A stretch of DNA of 49,192 bases from a virus, in the IMG/VR virus record IMGVR_UViG_3300031885_000026, positions 1 to 49,192 of that record, one strand, 5' to 3'. A model generated the notes under the pieces. The model had not been told where the DNA came from and did no database searches. It was given only the letters and a program-made list of their open reading frames with translations. Position numbers and translations under genes: made by a program. How positions within the stretch are numbered: position 1 is the first letter of the stretch; every line of letters begins with the position of its first letter. Shown piece after piece: positions 466 to 49,192 of the stretch.

Positions 466-486
466 GCTGACTCCTTGATTCCTCAC

Positions 487-514
487 AAGGGCTTGCTGAG
501 GCAGGCCCTTTTTG
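487..514 (+). terminator. Rho-independent terminator or attenuator before polymerase
   Basis: A 10-bp stem (487-496 with 501-510, one G.U pair) closed by a TGAG loop is followed by TTTTT. It separates the upstream gene from the polymerase start at 526. The polymerase Shine-Dalgarno GGAG (517-520) begins just after the T tract. I see no promoter between them, so it may act as a partial attenuator rather than a full stop. Confidence 0.75.
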
Positions 515-525
515 TTGGAGACGTT

Positions 526-2173: not shown

Positions 2174-2174
2174 A
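1704..2174 (+). CDS. HNH homing endonuclease
   Basis: This 156-residue protein has the usual order for intron- or insertion-associated HNH enzymes. The N-terminal part (about 10-45) resembles a small beta module of the NUMOD4 type. The HNH core follows: H56 in the VHRVI segment, D72-H73 in VDHINGIKMDNRLENLE, then N81/N85. A C-terminal helix-turn-helix (about 111-150, with TGTEAARITGIS) probably reads the target site. It should nick or cut a polymerase gene lacking the insertion and so promote its own spread. Its ATG overlaps the stop of the upstream polymerase piece (ATGA) and its stop overlaps the next start (TAATG), so all three reading frames are probably translated as a coupled set. Confidence 0.9.
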   Translation: MSMFVEHPIYRGYLFYDDGTVVSLKWGKWRKLKPYADGPGYARLSIGTDRMCIRVHRVIMELFKGPSDLYVDHINGIKMDNRLENLEYVTASENVRRGYELSKRQGNYIKYTDEQINHAIGLKGTMTGTEAARITGISMWYIYDLWTGNHRKYRSR

Positions 2175-3055
2175 TGCCTTTCGCAATACTGCAGATCCCT
2201 AAAACCAAAAACTTTTTTGCGGGATTGCAAGCATCGCCAGGATGCTCGCTTATATACAGTGATGCTGCCTCGCTTGAACCGCACTGCTCAGCCTATTACA
2301 CTAGAGACAAACGACTGTTGCAGCTCTATGGGCCAGGTGCCAAGGCTAATGATATCTACATTTTTTACGGTAGCGCTACTCCTCAGTATGGTGCAAAATT
2401 TGCAGCATTAGGATATGATGCAAATAATCCAACCAAAGAAGCAATGAAGGCTATAAAACAGCAATTGCCAGACGACAGAAACGTATGCAAGAAAGTGACA
2501 CTTGGCTGTAATTACGGAATGGGACCGGGAAAATTACAGACTGAGATGTTGCTGGCTGGCTTTAACGTATCACTCGAAGACGCTGAGCTACTTCACACCA
2601 CATACTGGGACTTCTTTGGCGGCATCAAAGAGTTTCAGCAGAAGCTGAAGCGCCAATGGCAAGCTAACGGCGGGTATATCCTGGGCCCTAGAGGTGAGCC
2701 TATCACAATACCCAAGCCATACAAGTATTACGACAGCACTAAGGGCAAGACTATCACGATCGACTATACCAAGGACATCGTCAATAGGTTTATCCAGCGC
2801 GCAGGCCATGATGTACACATGCGGTTCATATATAATATCAACCAGTTGCGATTAACTAGGTCTGTGCCAATGGTTCCGTTTCATGTGGACTGGCATGACA
2901 GTTCGTGCTTTGAGGTTCCGGACGAGCATGTACAGGACGCGCTGGATGTTTACGTCGAGGCAGAAACTATCCTAAACCATGAGCTTGGATGGGATGTAAA
3001 AATTCGCTATGTGCCTAAGGTAGGCAAATCACTATCTGATTTTATAGAGGACTAA
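2174..3055 (+). CDS. polA: Family A DNA polymerase, C-terminal catalytic piece
   Basis: The 293-residue piece starts with the second half of the TGRxSS/QxIP block and contains the palm and fingers. Motif A is YSDAASLEPH (D30, E35). Motif B on the O helix is RNVCKKVTLGCNYG, with R102, K106 and Y114 in the canonical spacing. Motif C reads WHDSS with H241 and D242. Two residues are unusual: the position equivalent to E. coli Pol I F762 is Leu (L110), and the Glu after the catalytic Asp of motif C is Ser (S243). The helix with N204/Q208 that precedes motif C is present. No exonuclease is present here; it is on the upstream piece. The start is the ATG in TAATG. Translation presumably depends on coupling to the HNH gene, because there is no strong independent Shine-Dalgarno. 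Confidence 0.9.
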   Translation: MPFAILQIPKTKNFFAGLQASPGCSLIYSDAASLEPHCSAYYTRDKRLLQLYGPGAKANDIYIFYGSATPQYGAKFAALGYDANNPTKEAMKAIKQQLPDDRNVCKKVTLGCNYGMGPGKLQTEMLLAGFNVSLEDAELLHTTYWDFFGGIKEFQQKLKRQWQANGGYILGPRGEPITIPKPYKYYDSTKGKTITIDYTKDIVNRFIQRAGHDVHMRFIYNINQLRLTRSVPMVPFHVDWHDSSCFEVPDEHVQDALDVYVEAETILNHELGWDVKIRYVPKVGKSLSDFIED

Positions 3056-3057
3056 AA

Positions 3058-3249
3058 ATGTTTTACGTTTGGCGTTGCACTAAATGCAAATTTGAGTTAG
3101 AAGTAGAGAGGTCAGTGGCGGATCGGAATACCGAACCGGAAGTTGACAGATCGGAATGTGACCATGAAATGTATAGACCTATCCTGCCGAGTTCGTTTAT
3201 ATTGGCCGGCGGCGGATGGTTCGCGGATGGCTACTCTAAACCAAAGTGA
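3058..3249 (+). CDS. FmdB-type zinc-ribbon protein
   Basis: A 63-residue protein with CTKC near the N-terminus, a single Cys (in SECD) about 24 residues later and a C-terminal Phe/Gly-rich segment (LAGGGWFADGY). This is the pattern of the small FmdB-like zinc-ribbon proteins common in phage replication operons, where the role is unknown (putative regulatory). The second Cys pair is degenerate (C-D-H instead of CxxC), so metal binding would use one Cys plus a His if it occurs. Two bases separate it from the polymerase stop, so it is co-transcribed. A second zinc-ribbon protein of similar design lies at 9676. Confidence 0.7.
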   Translation: MFYVWRCTKCKFELEVERSVADRNTEPEVDRSECDHEMYRPILPSSFILAGGGWFADGYSKPK

Positions 3250-3257
3250 GGTGCGGC

Positions 3258-3494
3258 ATGACATTACTTAAGCGCCTTAGGGGTATAGTAATTGAGGCTC
3301 AGACAAAGGGCTATTATAGCAAAGACGCAGACGGAGCTATGTGGTTGGGATTGCCTGCTCTTTTAGATGTAGCTGTTGCGGCTAGAGATTTTATGGACTC
3401 CGATGGCGACTACTTCAGCTGGACTGAAGATGAGCGACATTGTTTCTCAAAGTTGCGAGATGCAGTAATAAACTTAGAGGAGACTGAGATATGA
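3258..3494 (+). CDS. Hypothetical small protein
   Basis: 78 residues, no recognised family. The N-terminus is basic, followed by a helical segment rich in Ala/Val and an acidic C-terminal half (DSDGDYFSWTEDE region). I start it at the ATG at 3258 because TGAGG at 3247-3251 gives a good Shine-Dalgarno spacing; a GTG at 3246 inside the previous stop region is an alternative. Its last codons overlap the next gene by 4 bp (ATGA), typical of coupled translation in this operon. Confidence 0.6.
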   Translation: MTLLKRLRGIVIEAQTKGYYSKDADGAMWLGLPALLDVAVAARDFMDSDGDYFSWTEDERHCFSKLRDAVINLEETEI

Positions 3495-3874
3495 GCAACA
3501 AAGCGTATTTGCGGTACGAGTCTGCAGTTGAGATAGCTCCATATTTAGTGGGATGGTATAGACAAGGAGAAAAACTTGGCGTGCGCATATACCATAATGA
3601 CCCGCTAATACTAGAAAAAGTAGCAAATAAGCTGCACTTGAGACTGATAGGTGAGATTGAGGCGCAGCAGCATAACAATTATACAGAGATGCGCTGCTCT
3701 ATTTTTGAGTGGTCAGATACAGGATGTGTAATAAACTTTCCAGTGAGCGCGCCAGCAGGATTCGCATATCACGTGCTGCCCGCTAGCGGCTGCGTGCATG
3801 AGTTTGAAGCTGTGCACCTGTTTACTAGCAGTTATCAGAAGTGCATCAAGTGCGGTAAGGAGGTTGAACTATGA
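3491..3874 (+). CDS. Hypothetical protein with C-terminal zinc-knuckle-like segment
   Basis: 127 residues. The body is unrecognised. The last 27 residues carry C-x-H-x-F followed by YQKCIKCGKE, a short metal-binding arrangement (Cys, His, CxxC) seen at the ends of many small phage proteins. Start and stop overlap both neighbours by 4 bp. A strong AAGGAGG just before its stop serves the next gene. Function is unknown; a nucleic-acid or protein-interaction role for the zinc segment is inference. Confidence 0.6.
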   Translation: MSNKAYLRYESAVEIAPYLVGWYRQGEKLGVRIYHNDPLILEKVANKLHLRLIGEIEAQQHNNYTEMRCSIFEWSDTGCVINFPVSAPAGFAYHVLPASGCVHEFEAVHLFTSSYQKCIKCGKEVEL

Positions 3875-4032
3875 ACTACGACCAGTACGTTAGGATACAA
3901 ATAGAGATGATGGTACGTGCCGCTGTACGCAAACAAGACAGAGCTATTAAGTCCTTAGAGCGAGCCACTAAGAATCTTGAACTGGCCAACAAGGAAGTTA
4001 AAGACCTTGTTAAAGCCCTGGAGGCGTTATGA
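3871..4032 (+). CDS. Small coiled-coil protein
   Basis: 53 residues, preceded by a perfect AAGGAGG (3857-3863) seven bases before the ATG, and overlapping both the upstream stop and the downstream primase start by 4 bp (ATGA). From about residue 17 it is a continuous charged helix with heptad-like Leu/Val spacing (RAIKSLERATKNLELANK region), so a short coiled coil is likely. The function is unknown. The position immediately before the primase suggests a replication accessory role, which is inference. Confidence 0.65.
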   Translation: MNYDQYVRIQIEMMVRAAVRKQDRAIKSLERATKNLELANKEVKDLVKALEAL

Positions 4033-4841
4033 TTCAGTATGAACATCGATCAACCAAGATTCGACAAGGGCCGCCCAAACTTACGGCTCATGCCAATCTT
4101 GAACTTTTGCGAGGATTCCGTTCTGTTTATGGGTGGCCCGCCGATGCAGCTCAGCATGTGATGTCCACACGCTCGTCGGCCGGCCTTAAGTATTTCGCTG
4201 TCTATAGTAACGAATTGCTTCTAGATTTTGATGACCAGCCAGAGGCTGCGGCCCAGTGTGAGCAATGGCTACTGGACAATAACCACACGTACACCATGTG
4301 GAACAGCGGCGGCAGGTCAATTCACTTCCACATTAGGTGCTGCGACATGGAAGGTACTACTGTACCGCAGAGCCAGAAAGCTTTTGTCGCGCGGCAATTT
4401 CCTAAGGCCGACCTATCTTTCTACCATGCTGCAGGAATGTACCGATTGCCGGGCACCGCACACGAAAAGAATCCTGGCCGCTATAAAGTGATGCTTAGCC
4501 ACCACTACGGCGTACCATTGGATATTCCACTGTTATCTAGTATGCCTGTGTTTAGATCTGCTGCTGTAGATTCGGACACAGACAAACAGGAATGCGAAAG
4601 ACTGTTGACAGTGATGATGTTTAAAGTTATAAGTGAGGGCGAGGGGAGAAACCAACATGCATACAAACTTGCTAAGATTGCTCAAGACTGCGGATATGAC
4701 TATGATCGCGCGCTGGAAATTGTGGCTGCATGGTCCGACACCTGTGCTCACCCAGGCCTTGGAGTTGATGAACTCGAAACCACAGTCAGAAGCGCCTATC
4801 GCATACAAGCACACGCGAATCTTTTGCGGCGGACCACTTAA
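4029..4841 (+). CDS. AEP-type DNA primase (archaeo-eukaryotic primase fold, PriCT)
   Basis: 270 residues. The AEP core shows LLLDFDD (D66, D68: first metal motif), SGGRSIHFHI (residues 93-102, the sxH nucleotide-binding motif) and KADLSFYHAAGMYRLPGT around 127-143, the usual third conserved stretch. Residues about 195-262 match the PriCT-1 domain (EGEGRNQHAYKLA ... LETTVRSAY). It should make primers for the polymerase upstream. There is no fused helicase; a separate helicase is two genes downstream. The gene overlaps the coiled-coil gene by 4 bp. After its stop comes a 119-bp gap, unusual in this tightly packed operon, that stays open in another frame (see findings). Confidence 0.8.
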   Translation: MIQYEHRSTKIRQGPPKLTAHANLELLRGFRSVYGWPADAAQHVMSTRSSAGLKYFAVYSNELLLDFDDQPEAAAQCEQWLLDNNHTYTMWNSGGRSIHFHIRCCDMEGTTVPQSQKAFVARQFPKADLSFYHAAGMYRLPGTAHEKNPGRYKVMLSHHYGVPLDIPLLSSMPVFRSAAVDSDTDKQECERLLTVMMFKVISEGEGRNQHAYKLAKIAQDCGYDYDRALEIVAAWSDTCAHPGLGVDELETTVRSAYRIQAHANLLRRTT

Positions 4842-4960: not shown

Positions 4961-5422
4961 ATGTTTACCGCCCAGCCAAAGTTCACGCCGGAGATGCGCA
5001 AGTTCCAAGCCAGCCTGAGACCACATCGGACAGCGATTCTGTCTGGATCGTTACTAGCGGTAGACCCAGGGAGTATCAGCCTGGGATGGGCATGGTTCCT
5101 GACTGGGGAACTGGTCATATCTGGAGAATATCAGGCACCTCGCACAACTTCTCCGCACGCGCGGTTGAGCCTTATAATGGATCAACTGCAACAGTGGGCG
5201 CAGCCACAAACCTTGTGTGTGGAGAGAATGTTCCGCTACAATCCGTCGCTCGTATGGGCAGTAGGCGCAGCTATTGTTACGGTCCGCCCAGCTTCCCTTA
5301 TTGAGATGCCTATAAGAATCTGGCAAGCATTCCGTGATGACACGTATGAGAAAAGCGATCAAGCTGATGCTGAGTTGATCGGCAGGTCTCTTATCTATTT
5401 AGCAAAGGATCTAAAGGTATGA
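4961..5422 (+). CDS. RuvC-like Holliday-junction resolvase / RNase H-fold nuclease
   Basis: 153 residues with the RuvC-type acidic motifs: LLAVDPGSISLGWA (D35), CVERMFRYN (E88) and KSDQADAELIG (D133/D136). The spacing and the central amphipathic segment fit phage RuvC-like endonucleases that resolve branched DNA during replication and packaging. The ATG has AGGAG 5 bases upstream. The stop overlaps the helicase start by 4 bp. It lacks the extra basic C-terminus of bacterial RuvC, as is common in phage versions. Confidence 0.8.
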   Translation: MFTAQPKFTPEMRKFQASLRPHRTAILSGSLLAVDPGSISLGWAWFLTGELVISGEYQAPRTTSPHARLSLIMDQLQQWAQPQTLCVERMFRYNPSLVWAVGAAIVTVRPASLIEMPIRIWQAFRDDTYEKSDQADAELIGRSLIYLAKDLKV

Positions 5423-7956
5423 GTATATTTGCCCACGTTCCAGAAGGTACTACGCTAAGGCCTGTACAAATAAAAGTGCTGTCTGAGGTAGAAGCCAATT
5501 GGAACAAGTACGACTGCTTTGTGGTCCCCGCTATGGTCGGATGCCATGCAGCTGGAGAGCGCGTGCTTATGTACGATGGTACAGTTAAGTATGTTGAGGA
5601 TGTTGTTATTGGCGACAAACTGATGGGACCAGACAGCAAACCAAGAAATGTTTTGAAATTATGTAGAGGCACAGACACCATGTATAAGGTAACTCCTGTT
5701 AAAGGAGACCCTATGATTGTAAATGGTGAGCATATACTAAGTTTCAAGATGACTCCGCACAAAGCTGGACAGGAGCATGTAATTAAAAACATGTCTGTTA
5801 ATGAGTATCTCAGGCTAACTAATAGTGCGACTAGATCGTGTAAACTCTGGAGAACTGGAGTAGAATTCAGTAATATAAAGTACATCCTACCTATAGATCC
5901 ATACATACTAGGCATATGGCTTGGCGATGGATCGTCTAGCCAGACGTCTATCACAACTATGGATGCAGAAGTTGTGGAAGCTTGGACTACTTGGTGTAAC
6001 AGCTTAGGACTAGTTGTTAGGGAGCACATAAAAGATAGCGGCGATAATTTAGCTAAAACTTACAGTGCAGTAACTCAAACTTTTATCGATGGAGGAAAGG
6101 CCACTAATGCTGGCGCTGCAGCTCTCAGAGATTTAGGTGTTCTGGATAATAAGCATATACCGCAACAGTATCTGTCAGCATCTAAAGAAGATAGACTTAA
6201 TTTGTTGGCCGGCCTACTGGACACAGATGGAAGTCTTGCTCATGGCGGATTTGACTTTATTCAAAAGAGAAAGAATATAGCTGATGGGATAGCATTCCTA
6301 GCTAGATCCGTAGGCTTGGCTGCCTATGTATCGGAGTGCAGAAAGGGATGCCAGACCGGATATGTCGGCACCTACTATAGGGTGTCTATATCAGGGCACT
6401 GCGACATAATTCCTACAAGAGTCAGACATAAGAAGTGCGGACCTAGGCTGCAAAAAAAGAGCGCGCTGGTCACTGGATTCAAAGTGGAAAAACTTGGCAC
6501 TGATAATTATTATGGCTGGAAAGTAGACGGGGACAATCTATACTTGATGCACGATTTCACTGTTACGCACAACTCAGGCAAGTCCGTCATAGCTATGACC
6601 ATCCTTCAGTGGCGCAAGTCTCTTAAGCAGATAGTGTCCATTGTCACGCCGCAAGTTATGCTGCAAGAGCAATATGGTGCCGACTTTCCAGATGTGGCTG
6701 TGCTGAAGGGTAAGAGCCGGTACGAGTGCTCGGAGTCTACTGACAAAGTTAAGTATACGTGCGAAGATACGCACGACATGTGCGAGAACTACTGCGAGTC
6801 TTGCCCATACCTGGCTGCCAAAAGCAAGGTGGATAGGGATGGAGCTGGCGTATTCAACTTCCATTCATTCCTATTTGGCAGCGCCGAGCCCGATACGCTG
6901 ATCGTAGATGAGGCTCACTGTATATTTGACGTACTATCCGACTACTACACTAAGCATATGTACAAGAGCCAGGATAACTATGGCAACGTGCAGACCATCG
7001 GCGATGCTATGATATTCCTTGAGAAAAAACTTAAAGATCTGCGGCCCCAACTGGCTCAATTGAAAAAAGATAAAAATCCGGAGGACGCTAAGGAGATACG
7101 GCAACTAAGCCGTGAAATAGCTAACCTTAATACCATAATTGGTGGCGTGCAAGCTAACCCCAAAGAGTTCTTCTTTGAGCGCAAAGATACCGAGTTCCGA
7201 CGCCAGCCGACTGAGGAGATTAACATCAAACCGCTGGATCTTGGTAACCTTAGCGCTGTGCTGTGGCCCAAGAAGGGTAAGGTTGTGCTGATGTCAGGAA
7301 CCATCAACTCGCTGGATATTCAGAAGCTGGGCCTAGGTATGCGCCGCGTGTTGACTATTGACTGCCCTAGCGCTATTGATCCTGGTCGTCGGCCTGTCGA
7401 GTTTATACCAGTAGCTAACATGAGTTACAAATATCAGGAAGTTAGTGTACCTATCATGGCCAAGTACCTACTCGCTCTGCTTGATAAGCATCCAGATGAG
7501 AAGGGTCTGATCCACGTGCCATACCAGTTGGCTGTTAAATTGCGTCCGCACCTGAAGCATAAGCGCCTAATGTGGCATGACAACAAGGATAAAGAGGATG
7601 CCTATAAAGCTTTCCGTGCAACTACCCAGCCGGCTGTCCTAGTGGCATCAGGCATGGCAGAGGGCGTGGATCTTCCATATGACGCAGGTCGATGGCAAGC
7701 TATCATCAAGATCCAGTACCCAAGCTTAGCTGATAACCTTATGAAATACTTCATGAACAGTGAGCCGTCGTGGTATTCCTGGCTAACGATCAGAACGCTG
7801 GTACAGCAGTGTGGTAGGATATGTCGAGGGCCGGATGACTATGGCGTGTCCTACATTTTGGATGTTGCTTTTGAAAACCTTCTTAGGTATAATAAAAGAC
7901 TGATGCCAAAGTATTTTCTTGACGCTTTACATATTCATAAGAGGCCTACAAAATGA
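5419..7956 (+). CDS. XPD/DinG-like SF2 helicase with Fe-S cysteines, interrupted by an intein
   Basis: 845-residue precursor. After removal of the intein (residues 42-385) the 501-residue mature protein reads AMVG-SGKS, rebuilding Walker A. Motif II is IVDEAHC (DEAH at 497-500). Between Walker A and DEAH lie five cysteines (C437, C448, C455, C459, C462), the position of the 4Fe-4S domain in XPD/Rad3/DinG helicases. Later motifs are MSGTI, ASGMAEGVDLP and QQCGRICRGPDD (about 796-807). The likely role is 5'-3' unwinding of branched or replicating DNA. Both ends overlap neighbours by 4 bp. A role as the main replicative helicase is inference, because no RepA/DnaB-type helicase is visible in the window. 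Confidence 0.85.
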   Translation: MSIFAHVPEGTTLRPVQIKVLSEVEANWNKYDCFVVPAMVGCHAAGERVLMYDGTVKYVEDVVIGDKLMGPDSKPRNVLKLCRGTDTMYKVTPVKGDPMIVNGEHILSFKMTPHKAGQEHVIKNMSVNEYLRLTNSATRSCKLWRTGVEFSNIKYILPIDPYILGIWLGDGSSSQTSITTMDAEVVEAWTTWCNSLGLVVREHIKDSGDNLAKTYSAVTQTFIDGGKATNAGAAALRDLGVLDNKHIPQQYLSASKEDRLNLLAGLLDTDGSLAHGGFDFIQKRKNIADGIAFLARSVGLAAYVSECRKGCQTGYVGTYYRVSISGHCDIIPTRVRHKKCGPRLQKKSALVTGFKVEKLGTDNYYGWKVDGDNLYLMHDFTVTHNSGKSVIAMTILQWRKSLKQIVSIVTPQVMLQEQYGADFPDVAVLKGKSRYECSESTDKVKYTCEDTHDMCENYCESCPYLAAKSKVDRDGAGVFNFHSFLFGSAEPDTLIVDEAHCIFDVLSDYYTKHMYKSQDNYGNVQTIGDAMIFLEKKLKDLRPQLAQLKKDKNPEDAKEIRQLSREIANLNTIIGGVQANPKEFFFERKDTEFRRQPTEEINIKPLDLGNLSAVLWPKKGKVVLMSGTINSLDIQKLGLGMRRVLTIDCPSAIDPGRRPVEFIPVANMSYKYQEVSVPIMAKYLLALLDKHPDEKGLIHVPYQLAVKLRPHLKHKRLMWHDNKDKEDAYKAFRATTQPAVLVASGMAEGVDLPYDAGRWQAIIKIQYPSLADNLMKYFMNSEPSWYSWLTIRTLVQQCGRICRGPDDYGVSYILDVAFENLLRYNKRLMPKYFLDALHIHKRPTK
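5542..6573 (+). mobile_element. LAGLIDADG intein in the helicase P-loop
   Basis: 344 residues. Block A begins with Cys (CHAAGERVLMYDG) and block B contains VNGEHIL with its conserved His. The DOD endonuclease motifs LGIWLGDGSS (residues 164-173) and LLAGLLDTDG (262-271) both keep their catalytic Asp. Blocks F/G end FTVTHN, followed by Ser as the first C-extein residue. All splicing residues (Cys1, His-Asn, +1 Ser) are present, so splicing and homing activity are both plausible. The site, inside the GxxxxGKS loop, is a typical conserved intein target. Codon use is AT-richer than in the exteins. Confidence 0.95.
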
Positions 7957-42348: not shown

Positions 42349-42795
42349 TTAAGTCTTCTTTAATTTCCGCACCTTAGAGTCAATAAAATTATCCAGTTCG
42401 TGGCTGGTCATGTTATTGATATCTTTAGCATTATCGGCCTTGGCGTTGGTTGGTCCATAGCCAGCATAACGTAGCAGAATCTCAGCGGCGCGCACCTGAT
42501 CGCTGGTCTTAGCCTCAGCTTCCTTGCCTATAAGATCTGCACCGTTCATCTCACAAATATCAATCAGGCGCTTTATAGCAGCGTCCACGCCGACTTCCAG
42601 CATGGCCTGGTTGATGGAGGTGTCGAGGAACCACTCGCGGAAATCAGCCTTCTTGAGGGCCATCTGCAACTCTAAACAACCAGACACACGCGCTATTTCG
42701 TGGTCGTCCATCTCGTCGGGCAGAAGGGCCTGGTTGCTTTTAATACGCTGCCAAAACTTAGCCTTGGCTATTTTCTGCTGGCGTGTTGGTGTCAT
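42349..42795 (-). CDS. Probable small terminase subunit (TerS-like)
   Basis: 148 residues. The central part FREWFLDTSINQ ... GVDAAIKRLIDICEM ... KTSDQVRAAEILLRYAGYG follows the pattern of small terminase or related phage DNA-recognition proteins (HTH-like segment, then a helical oligomerisation part with AAEiLL.yAG). N-terminal residues are basic. It overlaps the sigma gene by 38 bp. Separation from terL by about 6 kb is unusual. An alternative is a phage regulator of similar helical design. Confidence 0.45.
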   Translation of the reverse strand: MTPTRQQKIAKAKFWQRIKSNQALLPDEMDDHEIARVSGCLELQMALKKADFREWFLDTSINQAMLEVGVDAAIKRLIDICEMNGADLIGKEAEAKTSDQVRAAEILLRYAGYGPTNAKADNAKDINNMTSHELDNFIDSKVRKLKKT

Positions 42796-43294
42796 ACTGA
42801 CGCATCCTTTCGATGATGCCGCCCATCAACTGCGACACGCGGCTTTCGGTTACCTTGAGCGCTCTGCCTATATCCTTGAGGGTAAGGCCGCTAATATACA
42901 GGCCGACGATGTGCTGATCCTTCTCGCTGAGTTGACTAGACAGCTGGTTAATAAGAACCATGTCGTCTATATTCGAATCGCTACCACGGTTAATTGACGC
43001 AATGTGCTGATTAAACACAGCTCTTGTGTGATCGCGATCCTCGTCCTTGCTGCCACGGGGTTTATAGTATTTGCGGTACCAATCCATGAAGGCTGACTGT
43101 ACGCAATGATCCACGTAAGTCCGCAGCTTACATCTCTTTTCGTCAAAGCGCACCATTCGCTCAAGCACGGTGACCCACGCCATCGACTGCATATCTTCCA
43201 GCTCCTGAGGACCCACGCCCACCCAGTGACGGCTGCGCGCATTGATGACGCCCTGGATGATCTTGACCTCAGCGTCAGTTAATTTTTTGCTCAT
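42758..43294 (-). CDS. Phage-encoded RNA polymerase sigma factor (sigma70 family)
   Basis: 178 residues with two sigma domains. Region 2 (about 30-76: ELEDMQSMAWVTVLERMVRF, DEKRCKLRTYVDHC) binds the -10 and core polymerase; region 4 (about 119-165: LSSQLSEKDQHIV, GLTLKDIGRALKV, then SRVSQL) is an HTH for the -35. The protein is small (region 1 and most of 3 absent), as for phage and ECF-like sigmas. Start set at MSKKLTD because GAGGG precedes it. It probably redirects host polymerase to late promoters. It overlaps both neighbours. Confidence 0.85.
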   Translation of the reverse strand: MSKKLTDAEVKIIQGVINARSRHWVGVGPQELEDMQSMAWVTVLERMVRFDEKRCKLRTYVDHCVQSAFMDWYRKYYKPRGSKDEDRDHTRAVFNQHIASINRGSDSNIDDMVLINQLSSQLSEKDQHIVGLYISGLTLKDIGRALKVTESRVSQLMGGIIERMRQYDTNTPAENSQG

Positions 43295-43547
43295 TGTCGT
43301 GGCCCTCATTGGTGGGAAGAGCTATGTCGAAGCTCCAGATTTTATAGCGTTTTTTGATATTAGTAAAGATTGCGAGATCTTGACCGGCCAAGAGGTATTG
43401 CTGTAGTCGTTTGGAAGAGAAGCCGAGGTGGCGTGCGGTAGAGGGGACGTGCATAAAGACGCGCGAGCCGCGACGTTCAGCTCCGCCGATTTTGCCGACG
43501 ATCAGTAGCGTGTATAGTTTGTAGGGCCAGAGCGAGGCCAGCGCCAT
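43275..43547 (-). CDS. Small HTH-like protein
   Basis: 90 residues. The segment PSTARHLGFSSKRLQQYLLAG resembles a helix-turn-helix (small residues at the turn, hydrophobic i, i+4, i+7). The N-terminus is hydrophobic. AGGAGAGGAAG precedes its ATG. It overlaps the sigma gene start by 20 bp and the previous gene by 46 bp. A transcription-factor role beside the sigma factor and operator-like palindromes is attractive but not shown. Confidence 0.5.
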   Translation of the reverse strand: MALASLWPYKLYTLLIVGKIGGAERRGSRVFMHVPSTARHLGFSSKRLQQYLLAGQDLAIFTNIKKRYKIWSFDIALPTNEGHDNEQKIN

Positions 43548-43687
43548 AGACTTCCTCTCCTGAATGCGGTCAATGCAATGACAAAGAGTGCGAGGGCTAC
43601 AATTAGGGCCATTGTAGGAAGTTGGCCGTGCAGCAGGAGCACTATAGTAAAGCCGCCGATATTATAGAGCAAACCTTGAATTAACAT
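43502..43687 (-). CDS. Small two-helix membrane protein
   Basis: 61 residues, starting 11 bases downstream of the predicted transcription start of the leftward promoter at 43705-43733, with GAGGTGGAG upstream of the ATG. Two hydrophobic stretches (LLYNIGGFTIVLLLHG and MALIVALALFVIALTAF) then an Arg/Trp-rich tail. As the first gene of the regulatory operon it could be an early membrane or superinfection-exclusion factor; unproven. Confidence 0.55.
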   Translation of the reverse strand: MLIQGLLYNIGGFTIVLLLHGQLPTMALIVALALFVIALTAFRRGSLWRWPRSGPTNYTRY

Positions 43688-43704
43688 AACTCCACCTCTT
43701 ACAC

Positions 43705-43733
43705 ATTGTAACAAAACCACTACGTATTGTCAA
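43705..43733 (-). promoter_or_regulatory. Strong leftward sigma70 promoter
   Basis: On the minus strand TTGACA, 17 bp, TACAAT (11 of 12 consensus matches). Start near 43698 gives an 11-nt leader carrying GAGGTGGAG before the ATG at 43687. It drives the membrane peptide, HTH-like, sigma and small-terminase genes. Confidence 0.75.
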
Positions 43734-43891
43734 GCAACTATTATGCCAATATTCACGGCAAGATATATGCCAAACTCATCGCAGAAACGCTCCGGATGAG
43801 GAGGGGGAAATTCACTCTCCTACCCACCCCCCCAACCCCACTTCCTTGTATATAATAGTAGCAAGATTCGTGCCATGCCACAAATCGTCCA

Positions 43892-43953
43892 TACTCTATA
43901 CAGAGGCAAGAAGTATGCCATAGTATGCAGCTGACTATATACTATATACAGAG
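43892..43953 (+). repeat. Direct repeat pair TACTMTATACAGAG
   Basis: TACTCTATACAGAG at 43892 and TACTATATACAGAG at 43940 match at 13 of 14 positions, 48 bp apart. Between them AGTATGC occurs twice ten bases apart. The pair could be binding sites for an early regulator upstream of the plus-strand block. Confidence 0.4.
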
Positions 43954-43973
43954 CGCACGGCGGGTGGGGTGAT

Positions 43974-44003
43974 GAGAGGGGGGTAAATTCCCCATGCCCT
44001 CTC
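43974..44003. repeat. Inverted repeat GAGAGGG...CCCTCTC
   Basis: A 7-bp outer stem with an inner GGG/CCC pair around TAAATT. It lies 30 bp upstream of the rightward promoter at 44034. No T tract; may be a protein-binding palindrome rather than a terminator. Confidence 0.4.
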
Positions 44004-44033
44004 TGCCTACCTATACCCCTATCCTATAAATGC

Positions 44034-44062
44034 TTGACTTTCCCTTGCGGATGTGATATAAA
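44034..44062 (+). promoter_or_regulatory. Early rightward promoter with extended -10
   Basis: TTGACT, 17 bp, TATAAA preceded by TGA (extended -10 TGn). Start near 44069. Drives the first early gene at 44299 through a long leader. Confidence 0.65.
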
Positions 44063-44226
44063 TAAACTCAACTAACAACATGAGAGAGGGCCGAGGTCTG
44101 AAAAGGTTCCCTTTTCCTTTTACTAATCAGTTGCGAGCCGCCTACATAATAGACACTGCCTAATCCTATATACGCGCCATCGCTGGCTGCTATATAATAA
44201 CTCGACACCCGACCATCCCTAACCGC

Positions 44227-44255
44227 TTGACAGTACGTGCGGCATACTGTATGCA
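44227..44255 (+). promoter_or_regulatory. Second rightward early promoter
   Basis: Perfect TTGACA, 17 bp, TATGCA (3 of 6). Start near 44262, 37 bases before the first ATG. The weak -10 suggests activator need or lower strength. Confidence 0.45.
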
Positions 44256-44298
44256 AAGGACTGACTGTACCTTTCCCTCATTAACCAACGGAGTGTCT

Positions 44299-44487
44299 AT
44301 GACTAAGTTTACTGATGCCGACCTTGAGTGTATGTTTGACGACTGGTTCGATGAGAACTATAAGCCGGTGTCCTTTGGCAAACTATCGTATCCAGCGTCT
44401 ACGGTCCTGCAGCGCGTCGATCCTATCGCGTATGGCCAACTGATGAGCGACTGGCTGGATGTTAACTACGGAGACTTACATGACTAA
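44299..44487 (+). CDS. Hypothetical early protein
   Basis: 62 residues. A motif is repeated within the protein: DDWFDENY near residue 14 and SDWLDVNY near 50. Small phage proteins with a F/W-Lde-Y ... D-P-x-A-Y pattern (here VDPIAYGQ) are common in early regions of unknown function. GGAG lies five bases before the ATG. It overlaps the next gene by 8 bp. Confidence 0.6.
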   Translation: MTKFTDADLECMFDDWFDENYKPVSFGKLSYPASTVLQRVDPIAYGQLMSDWLDVNYGDLHD

Positions 44488-44692
44488 CACAATTACTGGC
44501 CCTGCTACTAAGATTCGTCCTATTGCCCTCGAGATGTTATTACTAGGTGTGCCAGTTGGCATGAGACAGCTCGACGACGACCTATACAGTCTAGAGTTAC
44601 CAGCGGAGGACTGGCTAGCCGTCGAGAAGATCCACGTGTCCTGGTTCGTTAATGCCCGCAACACCACTGTAACTGGAGGTATGGCTATATGA
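44480..44692 (+). CDS. Hypothetical early protein
   Basis: 70 residues. The middle is hydrophobic (IALEMLLLGVPVGM) followed by an acidic turn and ELPAEDWLAVEKIHVSWF. No family recognised. The ATG lies in the end of the upstream gene with GGAG six bases away, and its stop overlaps the next ATG (ATGA). Confidence 0.55.
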   Translation: MTNTITGPATKIRPIALEMLLLGVPVGMRQLDDDLYSLELPAEDWLAVEKIHVSWFVNARNTTVTGGMAI

Positions 44693-44859
44693 GACCTCTA
44701 GCCGAACGTATGTACGATAGTTGCACCAAAAAGACGCGCTACTTTACACTCGACCGTGCCATGCTGGTTGCTAAGTCTATATACGTGAAACAGGGCACTA
44801 TCCTCCGCGTATATCAGTGTGATTTTTGTCACTCTTTCCACCTGACGCACAAGATCTGA
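44689..44859 (+). CDS. Small Cys/His protein, zinc-finger-like
   Basis: 56 residues, beginning in the stop overlap of the previous gene. One Cys near residue 12, then CDFCHSFHLTHKI at the C-terminus, giving CxxC-x-x-x-H-x-x-H, a compact metal-binding pattern found in small phage proteins whose tail reads C..C..FHLT. Followed 24 bases later by a terminator. Role unknown. Confidence 0.6.
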   Translation: MRPLAERMYDSCTKKTRYFTLDRAMLVAKSIYVKQGTILRVYQCDFCHSFHLTHKI

Positions 44860-44882
44860 TCACTGCCAACTTTTCGACACCG

Positions 44883-44912
44883 ACCCAAATCACTAGCTGG
44901 TTTGGGTTTTTT
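44883..44912 (+). terminator. Strong rho-independent terminator
   Basis: ACCCAAA pairs with TTTGGGT around an 11-base loop, followed by six T. It ends the first early mini-operon; a new promoter begins 10 bases later. Confidence 0.85.
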
Positions 44913-44921
44913 CTTTTCACC

Positions 44922-44951
44922 TTGACACTAATACGCGCGCCACGATATACC
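44922..44951 (+). promoter_or_regulatory. Rightward promoter after terminator
   Basis: TTGACA, 18 bp, TATACC. Start near 44958; serves the gene at 45038 with an approximately 80-nt leader. The -10 is 4 of 6. Confidence 0.55.
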
Positions 44952-45037
44952 GCGTTAGTGCTGACAGTGGGTTGCAGTCTGGCACTATCCTTGCAAAGTC
45001 TCACTTGTCTAATTAACCAGCGAATGGAGTATACAAA

Positions 45038-45532
45038 ATGAAAATGACAGCAAACCGTATAGAAGTGACCACTTACCTGTCAGTATATACTGAAGATTCG
45101 ATCAGTAATGGCGAAAGAGACCGCGTTGACCAGGATGAGCGCTGGGTGTTTAATAACCTTGAGGATGCGGCCGAGTATATCGCTAGTGAGATTAACTATA
45201 AGGGGTACAGCGCATATGATAGTGGCACCGATTTTATGTCCATGCATACTGAATTTAGTATGAACTTTCGAACTGGCGAGCAAGAGGAGTATTCTATGTA
45301 TACTCACTTCGGAAAAAACATAGACTGCTACGACGTGCGCAATAAAGTCGAGGCCCTGATATATGACTGTTTGGTCAACCAGCATCAATTTAATGATCAA
45401 CAGGCCTCGCGCGTAATAGGTTATCGTCAAAAAGCTAGTGCAGTATCGGGACAGTCCTATCAGGGCACCGAGCCAGGATTTTGCGGTGCCACGCACCCCG
45501 ACAGCAGGCCGCGCCTGTACTTAGTCAAATAA
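45038..45532 (+). CDS. Hypothetical early protein
   Basis: 164 residues, rich in Tyr/Asp/Glu/Ser with no hydrophobic core suggestive of a membrane; looks cytoplasmic. Repeated acidic-aromatic stretches (EEYSMYTHFGKNIDCYD). No family recognised. GGAG precedes the ATG at 10-base spacing. Its stop codon is followed at once by the hammerhead ribozyme, which begins one base later. Confidence 0.55.
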   Translation: MKMTANRIEVTTYLSVYTEDSISNGERDRVDQDERWVFNNLEDAAEYIASEINYKGYSAYDSGTDFMSMHTEFSMNFRTGEQEEYSMYTHFGKNIDCYDVRNKVEALIYDCLVNQHQFNDQQASRVIGYRQKASAVSGQSYQGTEPGFCGATHPDSRPRLYLVK

Positions 45533-45586
45533 AGACGAAACGGCCACACGGCCGTCTATAGGCATGGTGCCTATACTGATGAGTCT
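45533..45586 (+). ncRNA. Type II hammerhead ribozyme
   Basis: All conserved nucleotides are present in permuted type II order. The stem II 3' strand AGAC (45533-45536) is followed by GAAA (45537-45540). Stem III is ACGGCC-ACAC-GGCCGT (45540-45555, A15.1 pairing with U16.1). C17 is at 45556 with the predicted cut after it. Stem I is TATAGGCA-TGG-TGCCTATA (45557-45575). The core CTGATGA lies at 45576-45582, and the stem II 5' strand GTCT (45583-45586) pairs with AGAC. The G10.1-C11.1 pair is satisfied. It lies in the 71-bp gap between two early genes; the 3' product carries the ribosome site (GGAG 45595-45598) and gene at 45604. Confidence 0.92.
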
Positions 45587-45603
45587 CAGCCAATGGAGTA
45601 TTT

Positions 45604-45921
45604 ATGTTTAACAGGCCGAAATTTATTGACAAGTTCCGCAACAGTACGCCGCGCAAGGGCCGCGTAAAGCTCAAGGACAACTGCTATAAAATCGAAAACG
45701 TGGGCGTGCAATTATTTAATACTATAGTTGTGGACTATAGCAAACCATTCGAGACGCGGCTATACACTGGAGAGTACCGCACTACCTCAACCAAAGGAGT
45801 CATTAATGCTACAATGCAGGCGCTAGAGTTGCCGGTACATATAATCCAACGTAAGGGCCAGTGGATAGTTGTTATCGACGAAACTGAAGTCGAATTTACT
45901 GAAGGGATGGTGGTCGCATGA
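45604..45921 (+). CDS. Hypothetical phage protein (early)
   Basis: 105 residues. Contains LFNTIVVDYSKPFETRLYTG, EYRTTSTKGVINATMQ and HIIQRKGQWIV, matching a widely distributed small phage/plasmid protein type (pattern: ..T.v.v.....L.....w.T.tTk..mN......v.q..g.W.v). Function unknown. It follows the hammerhead ribozyme, whose cleavage would leave this gene's 5' end close to its Shine-Dalgarno. It overlaps the next gene by 4 bp. Confidence 0.6.
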   Translation: MFNRPKFIDKFRNSTPRKGRVKLKDNCYKIENVGVQLFNTIVVDYSKPFETRLYTGEYRTTSTKGVINATMQALELPVHIIQRKGQWIVVIDETEVEFTEGMVVA

Positions 45922-46262
45922 AAGATTCATATAAAAAAGACAGCATGTTGACTGGCTATTTAGCGGCGGCTATATGGGCAGGCCTGGACGAAGACAGATA
46001 CACACTAGACGATATAGCGTATGGCAGTATTATGTGCGCAAGTCGCGAAATTGGCAGATTTGTTGAGCTAGCTGGATCGCTATTAGACAGTGAAGATCCG
46101 TCGCAAGTGGGCCACGACTTTTGGCTTACACGAAATGGCCATGGCGCCGGATTTTGGGATGGCGACTATGAGGACAGTAAAGGCAGACAACTGACAGCTA
46201 TATCTAAAGGATTCGGGACCAGCGATATTTATGTGCGCAATAATAAAATATACTTAACCTGA
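45918..46262 (+). CDS. Conserved phage hypothetical protein (HDFWLTRNGHGAGFWD type)
   Basis: 114 residues. The stretch VGHDFWLTRNGHGAGFWD is a hallmark of a conserved family found in many phages and plasmids. An acidic N-terminal helix precedes it and a short strand (SDIYVRNNKIYL) ends it. Function unknown. Starts in the ATGA overlap with the upstream gene. Confidence 0.7.
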   Translation: MKDSYKKDSMLTGYLAAAIWAGLDEDRYTLDDIAYGSIMCASREIGRFVELAGSLLDSEDPSQVGHDFWLTRNGHGAGFWDGDYEDSKGRQLTAISKGFGTSDIYVRNNKIYLT

Positions 46263-46273
46263 AAGGCGACAAA

Positions 46274-46672
46274 ATGAAACACTTACTGCCGCGTATGGTT
46301 TTTGTTAGTGCATACAGACCAACTAATACTGCCGATCAAAATCACGATGCCCAATTTGATTTGATCAAACGCATCGGCCGCCTCGAAATGAAGTATATAC
46401 ACTGTCGCGGAGTATATCAGGGTATTGGTGAGGCATCACTCGGGGTTGTATGTGAACGCCCCTGGTCTGTTGGCCGCGTATATGACTTAGCCAAAAACTA
46501 TTACAGTCAGGACAGCGCGCTATTACGTGAGCCCGATGGCTCATGCTGGCTGCTGTCTAATAGTTCAAGTCAGGGCGACTATATAGGCCAATGGTCCGAA
46601 ATAACCGGGGGTCAGGCCACACGTTTAGGCGGATATACTTACTATATGGGCAGGTTTTTCGCCGCAAGGTGA
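46274..46672 (+). CDS. Conserved phage hypothetical protein
   Basis: 132 residues. The segment HCRGVYQGIGEASLGVVC is characteristic of a recurrent phage early-protein type of unknown function, followed by a Tyr/Gly-rich C-terminal half. GAAAGGCG precedes the ATG. It is the last gene before a strong terminator at 46691, closing this early operon. Confidence 0.6.
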   Translation: MKHLLPRMVFVSAYRPTNTADQNHDAQFDLIKRIGRLEMKYIHCRGVYQGIGEASLGVVCERPWSVGRVYDLAKNYYSQDSALLREPDGSCWLLSNSSSQGDYIGQWSEITGGQATRLGGYTYYMGRFFAAR

Positions 46673-46690
46673 TGTGCATAGAGGCATAGT

Positions 46691-46723
46691 GGGCTAGACC
46701 GCATTTGTGGTCTGGCCCTTTTT
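46691..46723 (+). terminator. Strong rho-independent terminator
   Basis: Ten-base-pair stem GGGCTAGACC / GGTCTGGCCC (one G.U) with an 8-base loop, then TTTTT. It lies between the two early genes flanking it; transcription of the next gene needs readthrough or a promoter I could not find. Confidence 0.9.
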
Positions 46724-46751
46724 GGTGCCAACTGGTGGAGGACTATAGCTA

Positions 46752-47156
46752 ATGATCAGAGTATACAGAGTAAGGCGGCCGCTTGACGGTGCCGGACCCT
46801 ATCGCGCTGGACCCAGCTTTCAGGAAAAGTGGACAACTACGTGGCACGGCAATGCCAAACACCGACCAACGCCCTGCCATGATCCCGGTCTGCAGCGTTA
46901 TCCGGCAGGTGAGGTGTGTGCCTTTACTACTCTTAAGGCAGTATACCGCTGGTTCGGGCGCGGTAACTTAACACGCTTATATGCTATGGGGTTCAGGATA
47001 GAGTCGGCATTGGTGCCCAACACGTTTGTCGATCGCGGCAAACACCAATGCCTAGTGCTGGACAGCAAAAAGGTACATTGGTGTCCTATATTAGTGAGTT
47101 ACCGCACCGAGCGCGGCTCGTGGAAACGTGAACCAATACGGCCTGATTCATTTTGA
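46752..47156 (+). CDS. Conserved phage hypothetical protein
   Basis: 134 residues. The N-terminus MIRVYRVRRPLDGAGPYR and the central region HGNAKHRPTPCHDPGLQ match a phage small-protein type common in early regions, of unknown function. A Trp/Cys-containing C-terminal half follows. GGAGG is seen seven to eleven bases upstream. Its TGA is overlapped by the Fur-box-like palindrome at 47155. Confidence 0.6.
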   Translation: MIRVYRVRRPLDGAGPYRAGPSFQEKWTTTWHGNAKHRPTPCHDPGLQRYPAGEVCAFTTLKAVYRWFGRGNLTRLYAMGFRIESALVPNTFVDRGKHQCLVLDSKKVHWCPILVSYRTERGSWKREPIRPDSF

Positions 47157-47173
47157 GAATGATTCTCATTATC
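47155..47173. promoter_or_regulatory. Fur-box-like palindrome
   Basis: GAGAATGATTCTCATTATC matches the 19-bp Fur consensus (GATAATGATAATCATTATC) at 16 of 19 positions. TGAGAAT-G-ATTCTCA (47154-47168) fits the 7-1-7 form with 13 of 15. No typical promoter overlaps it. If functional, host iron status could repress transcription through the repeat region. Confidence 0.5.
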
Positions 47174-47185
47174 CTGTCCAAGCTC

Positions 47186-47216
47186 CAGTCACTGGCCAAC
47201 TTTTAGGCGGTGACTG
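47186..47216 (+). other. Hairpin CAGTCAC/GTGACTG
   Basis: A 7-bp stem with a 17-base loop following the Fur-like site. No T tract follows. Confidence 0.4.
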
Positions 47217-47318
47217 ATCCCTAAACTCTGCTGGGCAAATTTAAAAATTTATCCTCAAAAGTTCTGGCTGAATTCTCCACAAATTCCAAAATTTATCTAG
47301 AAGTCAGTCAGCATAACC

Positions 47319-47341
47319 AAACCACAAGAAATTTGTGGTTT
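47319..47341 (+). terminator. Bidirectional terminator-like hairpin
   Basis: AAACCACAA pairs with TTGTGGTTT around GAAAT (9-bp stem). Short A/T runs inside the stem ends could help termination on either strand, but no long T tract follows. Confidence 0.45.
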
Positions 47342-47350
47342 ACTATAAGT

Positions 47351-47377
47351 ACCCAACAACATTGGCTGGGTGCTTTT
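47351..47377 (+). terminator. Weak terminator-like hairpin
   Basis: ACCCA/TGGGT stem with an 11-base loop, then GC and TTTT. Weak because the stem is only 5 bp. Confidence 0.35.
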
Positions 47378-47391
47378 GGTAAGTTACTAAT

Positions 47392-47940
47392 GCATCCGTG
47401 TAGGACTATTAGCGCCACATTTGGCTGTTAATATACCAACATAGGACTATTAGTACCGAAAAAGTACATCACCTGCACATTATACCCCCCATAAAAGTAC
47501 AGTTGCCGCTGATTATAACCGCCATAAATAACCAACGGCGCTTGTCCAATAGGTTGTACAATAAACTGTCCAATAGCCAGCTGCAAATGGCTGATATAGC
47601 ATCCGTAAAGGGTGCTAATGGCTATTATAGGACACTATTAAAGTACGTTATTTTATTCTTTAGGCCCATTATAGTATGTTGAGGGATACTATAAGATACT
47701 TTATGTCCACTTTAGGTACCTAAATCACCCCATAAGGGTATTTAAGAGCACATTTGCCTAAATGCATGGGCAATTCTCAGTGCGCCGGTTGTTCAGTATG
47801 TTGGTCATATGTCCACATATTGGCTATTTATGTGTACATTATGTCTATATGTATACAAATTGACCACATTTGTATGCTTTGTGGTATATTATTTACACCC
47901 GATCGGGCATATGACCAATATTCCTTGGCTATTTAGCAAT
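47392..47940 (+). repeat. Iteron-like cluster of short repeats
   Basis: Direct repeats: GCATCCGT at 47392 and 47599; TAGGACTATTAG at 47401 and 47442, with a third TAGGACAC-TATTA at 47628; TGTCCAATAG at 47543 and 47567; a 33-bp tandem unit from 47461 to 47526 with AAAGTACA, ATTATA and CCATAAA at fixed spacing; TTGGCTATTTA at 47820 and 47925. Inverted repeats: GGTCATATG at 47802 with CATATGACC at 47908, ATACAAAT/ATTTGTAT (47852-47874), and palindromes TTTAGGTACCTAAA (47711-47724) and CCCGATCGGG (47898-47907). This density suggests initiator- or repressor-binding sites. Confidence 0.6.
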
Positions 47941-47964
47941 CTGCAGTCCCGAGCAGGAATATAC

Positions 47965-47993
47965 TTGACACACATTAGCAACAGCGGTACAAT
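47965..47993 (+). promoter_or_regulatory. Strong rightward sigma70 promoter
   Basis: TTGACA, 17 bp, TACAAT (11 of 12). Start near 48000, just past the repeat cluster, leading into the small genes from 48203. Confidence 0.75.
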
Positions 47994-48080
47994 CGCCGTA
48001 GGCGTTCTATCTGGTCGAGGCGGGCACAGGAGCACTCGACATCTAAGGTTCGCTGGATTGCTGAGTTCGCGAAGCGGACG

Positions 48081-48188
48081 ATGCAAGACAAGAACAAGCG
48101 GTCTGAGGCTAAGTCGCAGATAATTAATAATTCACGTTTTGTGAACTTGAGGCTTGACGTGAACGGCATGGGCGTTGCATGGGGATAG
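48081..48188 (+). CDS. Possible small basic peptide
   Basis: 35 residues (MQDKNKRSEAKSQII ...), in the leader of the 47965 transcript. The in-frame upstream sequence remains protein-like (RWIAEFAKR), so the true start may be earlier at a non-ATG codon. Only a weak ribosome site; treat as tentative. Confidence 0.3.
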   Translation: MQDKNKRSEAKSQIINNSRFVNLRLDVNGMGVAWG

Positions 48189-48202
48189 CGTGGAGGCGGC
48201 AT

Positions 48203-48496
48203 ATGAGACTAATCAAGCCTGTGACAGATGATCAACAAATGCATACGTTGCTGCTAGCTCTTCTGGAGTGCAAGTTCCGCTACTACTATCCAAGCTACGT
48301 GCATAATAGTTGGACAGTGTTGTGGCCGAATGACCACGAGTACGACGCCATGGAGTTGCTTTATGAGCAGCGCTGTGGTAAAATGCCAGCTGGCTATCCT
48401 CACGAGACTTATGAAGGATCTGTAGTGGCGCGGTGCATGGAGATGGAGTACGTGAGGGGTAGCTTTCTGGAGCTTTATAGGAGACAGTATGGTTGA
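48203..48496 (+). CDS. Hypothetical early protein
   Basis: 97 residues. Tyr/Trp-rich (CKFRYYYPSYVHNSW, LYEQRCGKMPAGYP). No family recognised. GGAGG lies six bases before the ATG. Overlaps the next small gene by 8 bp. Confidence 0.55.
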   Translation: MRLIKPVTDDQQMHTLLLALLECKFRYYYPSYVHNSWTVLWPNDHEYDAMELLYEQRCGKMPAGYPHETYEGSVVARCMEMEYVRGSFLELYRRQYG

Positions 48497-48590
48497 GGCT
48501 ATCGGCTGGATCGGCGCGCAGTTGACAGTTAACTACGTGTTCAATTTAGCTTGCTTACTACCCATCGTTTGGGTAAAATGGAGGACGTGA
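48489..48590 (+). CDS. Tiny hydrophobic peptide
   Basis: 33 residues, one hydrophobic helix (VFNLACLLPIVWVKW) after a short amphipathic N-terminus. GGAG lies five bases before the ATG; start and stop overlap both neighbours, which supports real translation. May be a membrane peptide affecting host physiology; role unknown. Confidence 0.55.
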   Translation: MVEAIGWIGAQLTVNYVFNLACLLPIVWVKWRT

Positions 48591-48712
48591 TGGACGAGAT
48601 GTACATTCAGTGGCAAGAGTCAAAAGAAGAGCAGGGAACTGACGAGGACTTCGGCGACTGGCTGCATGATAAGTTGACAGATGCTGCAGACTTTTACAAA
48701 GATGGTGAATAA
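48590..48712 (+). CDS. Small acidic peptide
   Basis: 40 residues, acidic with Trp/Phe (DEDFGDWLHDKLTDA). GGAGG precedes the ATG, which overlaps the previous TGA. Last gene before the promoter at 48716. Function unknown. Confidence 0.55.
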   Translation: MDEMYIQWQESKEEQGTDEDFGDWLHDKLTDAADFYKDGE

Positions 48713-48715
48713 TAC

Positions 48716-48744
48716 TTGACCCCCAGACGTGTTCTTGGTATAGT
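48716..48744 (+). promoter_or_regulatory. Rightward sigma70-like promoter
   Basis: TTGACC, 17 bp, TATAGT (10 of 12). Start near 48751, leading into a region without a convincing gene and then a terminator at 49011. Confidence 0.65.
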
Positions 48745-48750
48745 TTGAAT

Positions 48751-49037
48751 AGACGGAAGCTTGGCCCTGTCTTTAAATAAAGAGCTAGGTAGACGCAGTA
48801 GTTCAAAGTTAGAATGGAGCGCAAGCTCCGGATGTGGAGTACGACACCCACCTGCGCAAACCAGAGGAGATCTAATGGGCTTTCAATTAGATCACAGAAC
48901 AAGGCGTTGAGCAGCAACCACGCCTACAGGTCTGGCGAGATGGCACCCTCGAAAAACGGGCCGCCCTACCCACAAATATCCAATATCTGCACACACTTCC
49001 TACCACATTGGCCCGCCACTAAGCGGGCTGTCTTTTT
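48751..49037 (+). ncRNA. Candidate structured noncoding RNA between promoter and terminator
   Basis: The predicted transcript from the promoter at 48716 to the terminator at 49011 is about 287 nt. It contains three successive hairpins: GGAGC-GCAA-GCTCC with a GNRA loop (48816-48829), GATCTAAT/ATTAGATC (48869-48893) and AGGCGT/ACGCCT (48902-48925). No frame inside has a good ribosome site except an 11-codon one (GAGGAG before an ATG at 48875) that the second hairpin would mask. No small-RNA family recognised. Confidence 0.45.
49011..49037 (+). terminator. Strong rho-independent terminator
   Basis: GCCCGC-CACTAA-GCGGGC perfect stem, then TGTCTTTTT. Ends the preceding transcript; a promoter begins five bases later. 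Confidence 0.85.
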
Positions 49038-49041
49038 GTTG

Positions 49042-49070
49042 TTGACAGTTGGCTCGGATAGTGCAATAAA
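49042..49070 (+). promoter_or_regulatory. Rightward promoter for the last gene
   Basis: TTGACA, 17 bp, AATAAA. Start near 49077, 30 bases before the ATG at 49107. The -10 is 4 of 6. Confidence 0.5.
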
Positions 49071-49106
49071 TAAAGAGCTGTATGAAGCAGCACAAAGGAG
49101 TCAGAA

Positions 49107-49192
49107 ATGAAATATGTACTAGCCTTAGCCTTATTAACCACAGCTGCAGAAGCCAAAGTGCGCGACCTATCGCTGGATCTTAAGCGTATGCC
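49107..49192 (+). CDS. Secreted/periplasmic protein, 3' end outside window
   Basis: 28 residues visible. The N-terminus MKYVLALALLTTAAEAKV is a clear signal peptide: Lys, a hydrophobic core, and AEA before a likely cut site. AAAGGAG is six bases before the ATG, and a promoter lies just upstream. The mature part begins KVRDLSLDLKRM. A secreted phage product in the early block may act on the envelope; function unknown until the rest is seen. Confidence 0.6.
   Translation, partial: MKYVLALALLTTAAEAKVRDLSLDLKRM

Follow-up and report, generated by a model that had tools for sequence, protein, structure and literature searches.

What does a small ribozyme do when it lies exactly at the boundary between two genes of a phage? 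This question is raised by an element at 45533-45595 of a viral contig from IMG/VR, in which a reading made from the sequence alone had seen a complete type II hammerhead. When the window (the whole 49,192-nt stretch of DNA that was analysed) was compared with all 4227 Rfam families using cmscan, the type II hammerhead model RF02276 (Hammerhead_II) matched this element on the plus strand with 45.2 bits (gathering score 37; E 3.8e-6) and a full-length alignment over all 66 model positions (model 1-66). The covariance-model search for which the sequence-only reading had called bears out its identification. No other Rfam family exceeded its cut-off in the 49-kb window, and a permissive Rfam setting applied to 43300-49192 returned the RF02276 match alone and no further family. 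In a structural scan, the type II core with its three helices occurred once on the plus strand of the window and not at all on the minus strand, and no second hammerhead was found in the window by either Rfam or the structural scan.

The invariant core (CUGANGA ... GAAA, an H17 other than G, A15.1-U16.1 and G10.1-C11.1) is present in full at 45533-45595, and the stem, core and cut-site elements each lie where they had first been placed (Table 1). Stems I (8 bp) and III (6 bp) are closed by loops and stem II (4 bp) is open, which is the type II permutation. Judged by these features, the element is a type II hammerhead ribozyme, a known ribozyme class, and it is probably active in self-cleavage. 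The small size of the motif is the one point in favour of a chance fold in a phage genome; the E-value of 3.8e-6 against all of Rfam, the exact fit to the gene boundary and the absence of the motif from all 600 windows resampled with a first-order Markov model make such an origin extremely improbable.

Table 1. Features of the ribozyme and of the genes around it (window coordinates).
Feature	Position	Strand	Basis or remark
Type II hammerhead, whole Rfam match	45533-45595	+	RF02276, 45.2 bits
Stem II 5' strand AGAC, C11.1 = 45536	45533-45536	+	pairs with GTCT 45583-45586
GAAA = G12, A13, A14, A15.1	45537-45540	+	sequence, Rfam alignment
Stem III hairpin ACGGCC-ACAC-GGCCGT, 6 bp, A15.1-U16.1 closing pair	45540-45555	+	in all predicted folds
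Stem III strands ACGGCC / GGCCGT	45540-45545 / 45550-45555	+	sequence
Predicted cleavage site, after C17 (45556)	45556-45557	+	hammerhead consensus position
Stem I hairpin TATAGGCA-TGG-TGCCTATA, 8 bp	45557-45575	+	in all predicted folds
Stem I strands TATAGGCA / TGCCTATA	45557-45564 / 45568-45575	+	sequence
Core CUGAUGA (C3-A9)	45576-45582	+	sequence, Rfam alignment
Stem II 3' strand GTCT, G10.1 = 45583	45583-45586	+	pairs with AGAC 45533-45536
3' tail CAGCCA	45587-45592	+	matches RF02276 tail
Upstream gene, 164 aa	45038-45532	+	ORF
Downstream gene, 105 aa, weak match phrog_554 / Kyano_Gp96	45604-45921	+	
Second downstream gene, 114 aa, phrog_1915	45918-46262	+	
Third downstream gene, 132 aa, S-adenosylmethionine lyase family PF23780	46274-46672	+	E 1.8e-17, 64 bits vs cut-off 28; phrog_2226
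Shine-Dalgarno GGAG of gene 45604	45595-45598	+	5 nt before ATG
Terminator-like hairpin before unit	44882-44908	+	11-bp stem and T run, consensus scan only
Terminator-like hairpin closing unit	46691-46718	+	12-bp stem, 8 GC pairs, T run, consensus scan only

Some details of the sequence-only reading required revision. It had ended the element at 45586, whereas the ribozyme reaches to about 45592-45595 and includes the pseudoknot tail CAGCCA. It had also described stem II as "only" 4 bp; across 100 type II motifs among the matches listed, stem II has 2 bp in 15, 3 bp in 42 and 4 bp in 38, so that 4 bp falls at the long end among natural type II hammerheads. The suggestion that a tertiary contact is relevant stands, but the partner, a pseudoknot between loop I and the 3' tail, had gone unmentioned. 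Pairing of the 3' tail with loop I as a pseudoknot is described for type II hammerheads in PMC3088659, and this RF02276 feature is common in type II, not universal. Across the 100 distinct motifs listed, the complementarity of loop I to its own tail scored 3.62, compared with 2.92 for tails permuted among motifs (200 permutations, sd 0.09, maximum 3.16); as the own-tail score lies above all permutations, the contact is real for the type II family.

In the window copy, the candidate pseudoknot joins UGGU (45565-45568) to GCCA (45589-45592) through three Watson-Crick pairs and one G-U. Its tail strand starts 6 nt past CUGAUGA, compared with 3-5 nt in most other motifs among the matches listed, which makes the geometry doubtful here. 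Being short and oddly spaced, the pseudoknot is the least certain part of this ribozyme, which for the same reason may have little activity at cellular Mg2+. Stems I and III are present in every predicted fold. The minimum-energy fold replaces stem II with a CUGA/UCAG hairpin; its energy is -22.2 kcal/mol and that of the active secondary structure -20.7 kcal/mol, a small difference that leaves the pseudoknot and the junction contacts uncounted.

The ribozyme fills the gap between the TAA stop codon of gene 45038 (45530-45532), which adjoins its first nucleotide with a 0-nt spacer, and the GGAG of gene 45604. The product of the upstream gene has no PHROG or Pfam match, and the consensus scan found no plus-strand terminator between genes 45038 and 45604. 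The bracketing terminator-like hairpins would bound a four-gene unit (45038, 45604, 45918 and 46274), with the caution that such sites number 6 in the window versus 4.7 in shuffles and so occur at about chance level; given hairpins flanking the unit, a cut at 45556/45557 should split the first gene from the other three. The 45038/45604 region plausibly holds early genes, on the basis of its small co-directional genes beside a divergent region and of the SAM-lyase-family gene at 46274. The SAM lyase of T3 is an anti-restriction gene and, by analogy, the gene at 46274-46672 possibly has an anti-restriction function; it stands two genes past the first gene behind the ribozyme. The leaders of 45038 and 45604 (45018-45032 and 45587-45601; CAGCGAATGGAGTAT and CAGCCAATGGAGTAT) are identical at 14 of 15 nt, and part of the ribozyme tail together with the Shine-Dalgarno sequence therefore resembles a duplicate of the 45038 leader.

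It seems likely that the hammerhead cuts a four-gene phage transcript into two messages at the gene boundary. We are led to this reading by the sequence, the fold match, the position and the recurrence of the arrangement in other phages. From these we infer cleavage, the chemistry of the ends in vivo and an effect at the mRNA level, as follows. The ribozyme would be transcribed within the four-gene unit and fold in the nascent mRNA, and a constitutive or near-constitutive cut after C45556 would leave gene 45038 on an upstream message and genes 45604, 45918 and 46274 on a downstream one. The stem III hairpin, with a 2',3'-cyclic phosphate, would close the upstream message 24 nt past the stop codon; the downstream message would open with the stem I hairpin and a 5'-OH, at a distance of 38 nt from the Shine-Dalgarno sequence. 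Such ends should slow both 5'-monophosphate-dependent and 3'-exonuclease decay, so that the use and breakdown of one message could be independent of the other, whichever genes they carried. A division between the 45038 and 45604 messages had already been proposed, and this is still the best reading of the sequence, the Rfam match and some 100 comparable boundary motifs from other phages; the distance of 40 nt then given from the new 5' end to the ribosome site becomes 38 nt, since GGAG starts at 45595.

Transcript splitting as a hammerhead role is a proposal of Perreault et al. 2011 (PMC3088659). According to that paper, clustered hammerheads of phages and prophages cleave in vitro, a triple hammerhead of A. 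tumefaciens cleaves in E. coli, and a mapped transcript 5' end of haloviruses HF1/HF2 lies no more than 3 nt from the hammerhead cleavage site; as a counterpoint, 4 of the 18 consensus hammerheads assayed were inactive. We regard it as unlikely that 45533-45595 has lost its activity, or that its fold persists for the sake of the hairpins alone, as an mRNA stabiliser or a minus-strand terminator. The weak pseudoknot spacing and a minus-strand terminator-like site listed at 45557-45538 would fit such an origin, but the core nucleotides are all intact, CUGAUGA, GAAA and stem II would be superfluous for hairpins alone, the locus has no convincing minus-strand gene, and terminator-like sites are hardly enriched in the window (again 6 versus 4.7 in shuffles).

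Message splitting at a boundary leads to the question of where other type II hammerheads lie. IMG/VR was scanned with a pattern limited to the core and free of any pairing requirement; after a helix filter, this gave at least 100 distinct type II motifs in at least 69 contigs, the window copy included; as the scans demand exact CUGAUGAG and CGAAAC, these counts describe a sample. A second pattern, ACTGATGAGNNNCAGCCA, was rejected, with at least 56 chance matches and no full hammerhead among the matches listed. Counting a stop codon if the frame it closes has 50 codons or more, and taking the 95 other phage motifs with enough flank, we found a stop within -4 to +6 nt of stem II in 66 of the 95 among the matches listed, compared with 8 of 95 on the antisense strand (likewise among the matches listed) and about 5% at random positions. 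A Shine-Dalgarno sequence and ATG follow 10-40 nt after stem II in 70/95, versus 1 antisense, and when one well-formed motif was taken per contig the stop abutted in 35/51 versus 6/51 antisense (both among the matches listed). Since the stop distances span all three frames, the stop is no constant element of the motif. In GTDB genomes at least 13 motifs pass the same filter; among those listed, all 8 whose stems I and III both reach 6 bp or more have an abutting stop and the other 5 of the 13 do not, the 6-bp limit having been chosen after viewing the GTDB list and then used on the viral set too. The tight stop-codon fit of type II hammerheads is general and recurs in unrelated phages; no statement of this rule was found in the open-access literature searched.

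A rough gene caller placed 55 of 102 motifs among the matches listed inside spurious, mostly antisense ORFs, and for this reason the boundary statistics rest on the caller-free tests. Where this simple caller left motifs intergenic, and for those motifs only, the ribozyme is co-directional with the preceding gene in 43/47 and with the following gene in 44/47 (among the matches listed). The genes flanking type II motifs mostly differ and are unrelated to each other, with no recurring flanking family found beyond small groups among the matches listed. What the element serves is therefore apparently the boundary itself and not any one gene family, and the window copy is most likely a gene-neutral mRNA cutter. 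One 67.6-kb phage contig (L074) carries at least eight type II hammerheads within 4 kb (892-4790, minus strand), at nearly every gene boundary, and would make a good natural test system. In further contigs (L037, L054 and L109), three genes upstream of hammerheads are related to each other and three upstream genes match HU-like DNA-binding families; on the downstream side, GemA and Mor families are represented among the more distant genes. This gene content suggests that type II hammerheads are present in the early operons of Mu-like phages.

Abutment of the stop codon also suggests that ribosomes may gate the cut. On this account the ribozyme would cut only when neither flanking gene is being loaded, coupling cleavage to translation: a ribosome terminating on 45038 would cover the AGACGAAAC strand and an initiating 30S on 45604 the pseudoknot tail, the ribosome footprint size that this presupposes being general knowledge. 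The 0-nt gap here, the gaps of -4 to +6 nt in 66/95 other motifs among the matches listed, in all frames, and the abutting stop in 8/8 well-formed bacterial-genome motifs among the matches listed are consistent with gating. So is the greater distance from the stop of terminator-like hairpins in the same viral contigs (median 12 nt, 14/54 within -4 to +6 nt), compared with hammerheads (median 2 nt, 70/95 among the matches listed), although this contrast draws on a crude, consensus-based terminator scan. Compact phage genomes would, however, favour tight packing anyway, with a median gap between gene pairs of 10 nt in the same contigs. We consider gating improbable for the window ribozyme, hold its detailed form, with terminating and initiating ribosomes covering the two ends, to be just as doubtful, and give a similarly low rating to the general claim that type II hammerheads of phages cut mRNA under translational gating, with such ribosomes keeping them uncut. 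If gating were true, cleavage would report how heavily the boundary is translated.

On balance we favour genome economy, a variant of message splitting opposed to ribosome gating, in which cutting is constitutive and stop-codon adjacency reflects a lack of spare DNA. It is the simpler account and we rate it higher. It agrees with the 10-nt median gene gap and with a 3' side that is likewise as short as Shine-Dalgarno spacing permits; against it stands the greater distance of terminator-like hairpins from stop codons in the same genomes.

Comparison with known systems places the window ribozyme among type II hammerheads (RF02276; PMC3088659), with which it shares the core, the open stem II, U16.1-C17, the AGCCA tail and an intergenic place in a phage. 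It differs in combining a 4-bp stem II with an AGCCA tail 6 nt past the core, a combination found in no further full hammerhead elsewhere in IMG/VR among the matches listed. The ardA-flanking clusters of Agrobacterium tumefaciens and Legionella (PMC3088659) likewise lie upstream of phage genes, some of which may act in anti-restriction, whereas the window has a single copy and other gene families, and its SAM-lyase role is drawn from Pfam only. The HHphage of HF1/HF2 shares a short distance to an early-gene start codon and a polycistronic transcript, and is consistent with in vivo processing; it differs in being a core variant with a high Mg2+ need and in belonging to an archaeal virus (PMC3088659). 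Theta ribozymes of gut phages (PMC10879173) are also small self-cleaving phage RNAs with a cleavage site exactly at a gene boundary, but have an HDV-like fold and lie beside tRNA genes.

A terminase search identified two relatives of the window, G003 (45.3 kb) and G002 (35.7 kb). Synteny with it starts in the polymerase or tail genes and runs as far as the sigma-factor gene, and identity is 56-88% for most structural genes. Neither contig extends to the ribozyme and early region; neither has an RF02276 match over the cut-off, and sub-threshold matches occur in control genomes too. A search of related loci found no homologues of the 45038 and 45604 proteins or of the 845-aa helicase, and one distant relative of the 45918 protein. 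Closely similar DNA was not found among phages, and tblastn with 45604 and 46274 gave no matches.

Elsewhere in the window, the DNA polymerase matches phrog_17 in two separate ORFs (475-1707 and 2174-3055). An ORF for an HNH_3 endonuclease (1704-2174) lies in the middle, and the polymerase gene (475-3055) is apparently split by a homing endonuclease. The 845-aa protein (5419-7956) is possibly a fusion: its C-terminal half matches a phage helicase profile and its N-terminal half resembles Vibrio and Klebsiella phage proteins labelled helicase, hypothetical protein or homing endonuclease. Near the divergent region lies a small sigma-70-like factor (42758-43309, minus strand; region 2 weak, region 4 clear), kept in G002 and G003 at 46%. 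CTGANGA occurs 45 times over both strands versus 25 expected in shuffles, and 0 of 100 shuffles reach 45; as one alone of the 45 belongs to a hammerhead, codon usage probably accounts for the excess.

The abutment of a stop codon, seen in about 70% of the type II motifs listed, which come from dozens of phage contigs, and seen again in a second collection, is a simple rule. It offers a concrete clue to the role of phage hammerheads, a question that dates from 2011, and turns that question into a direct test.
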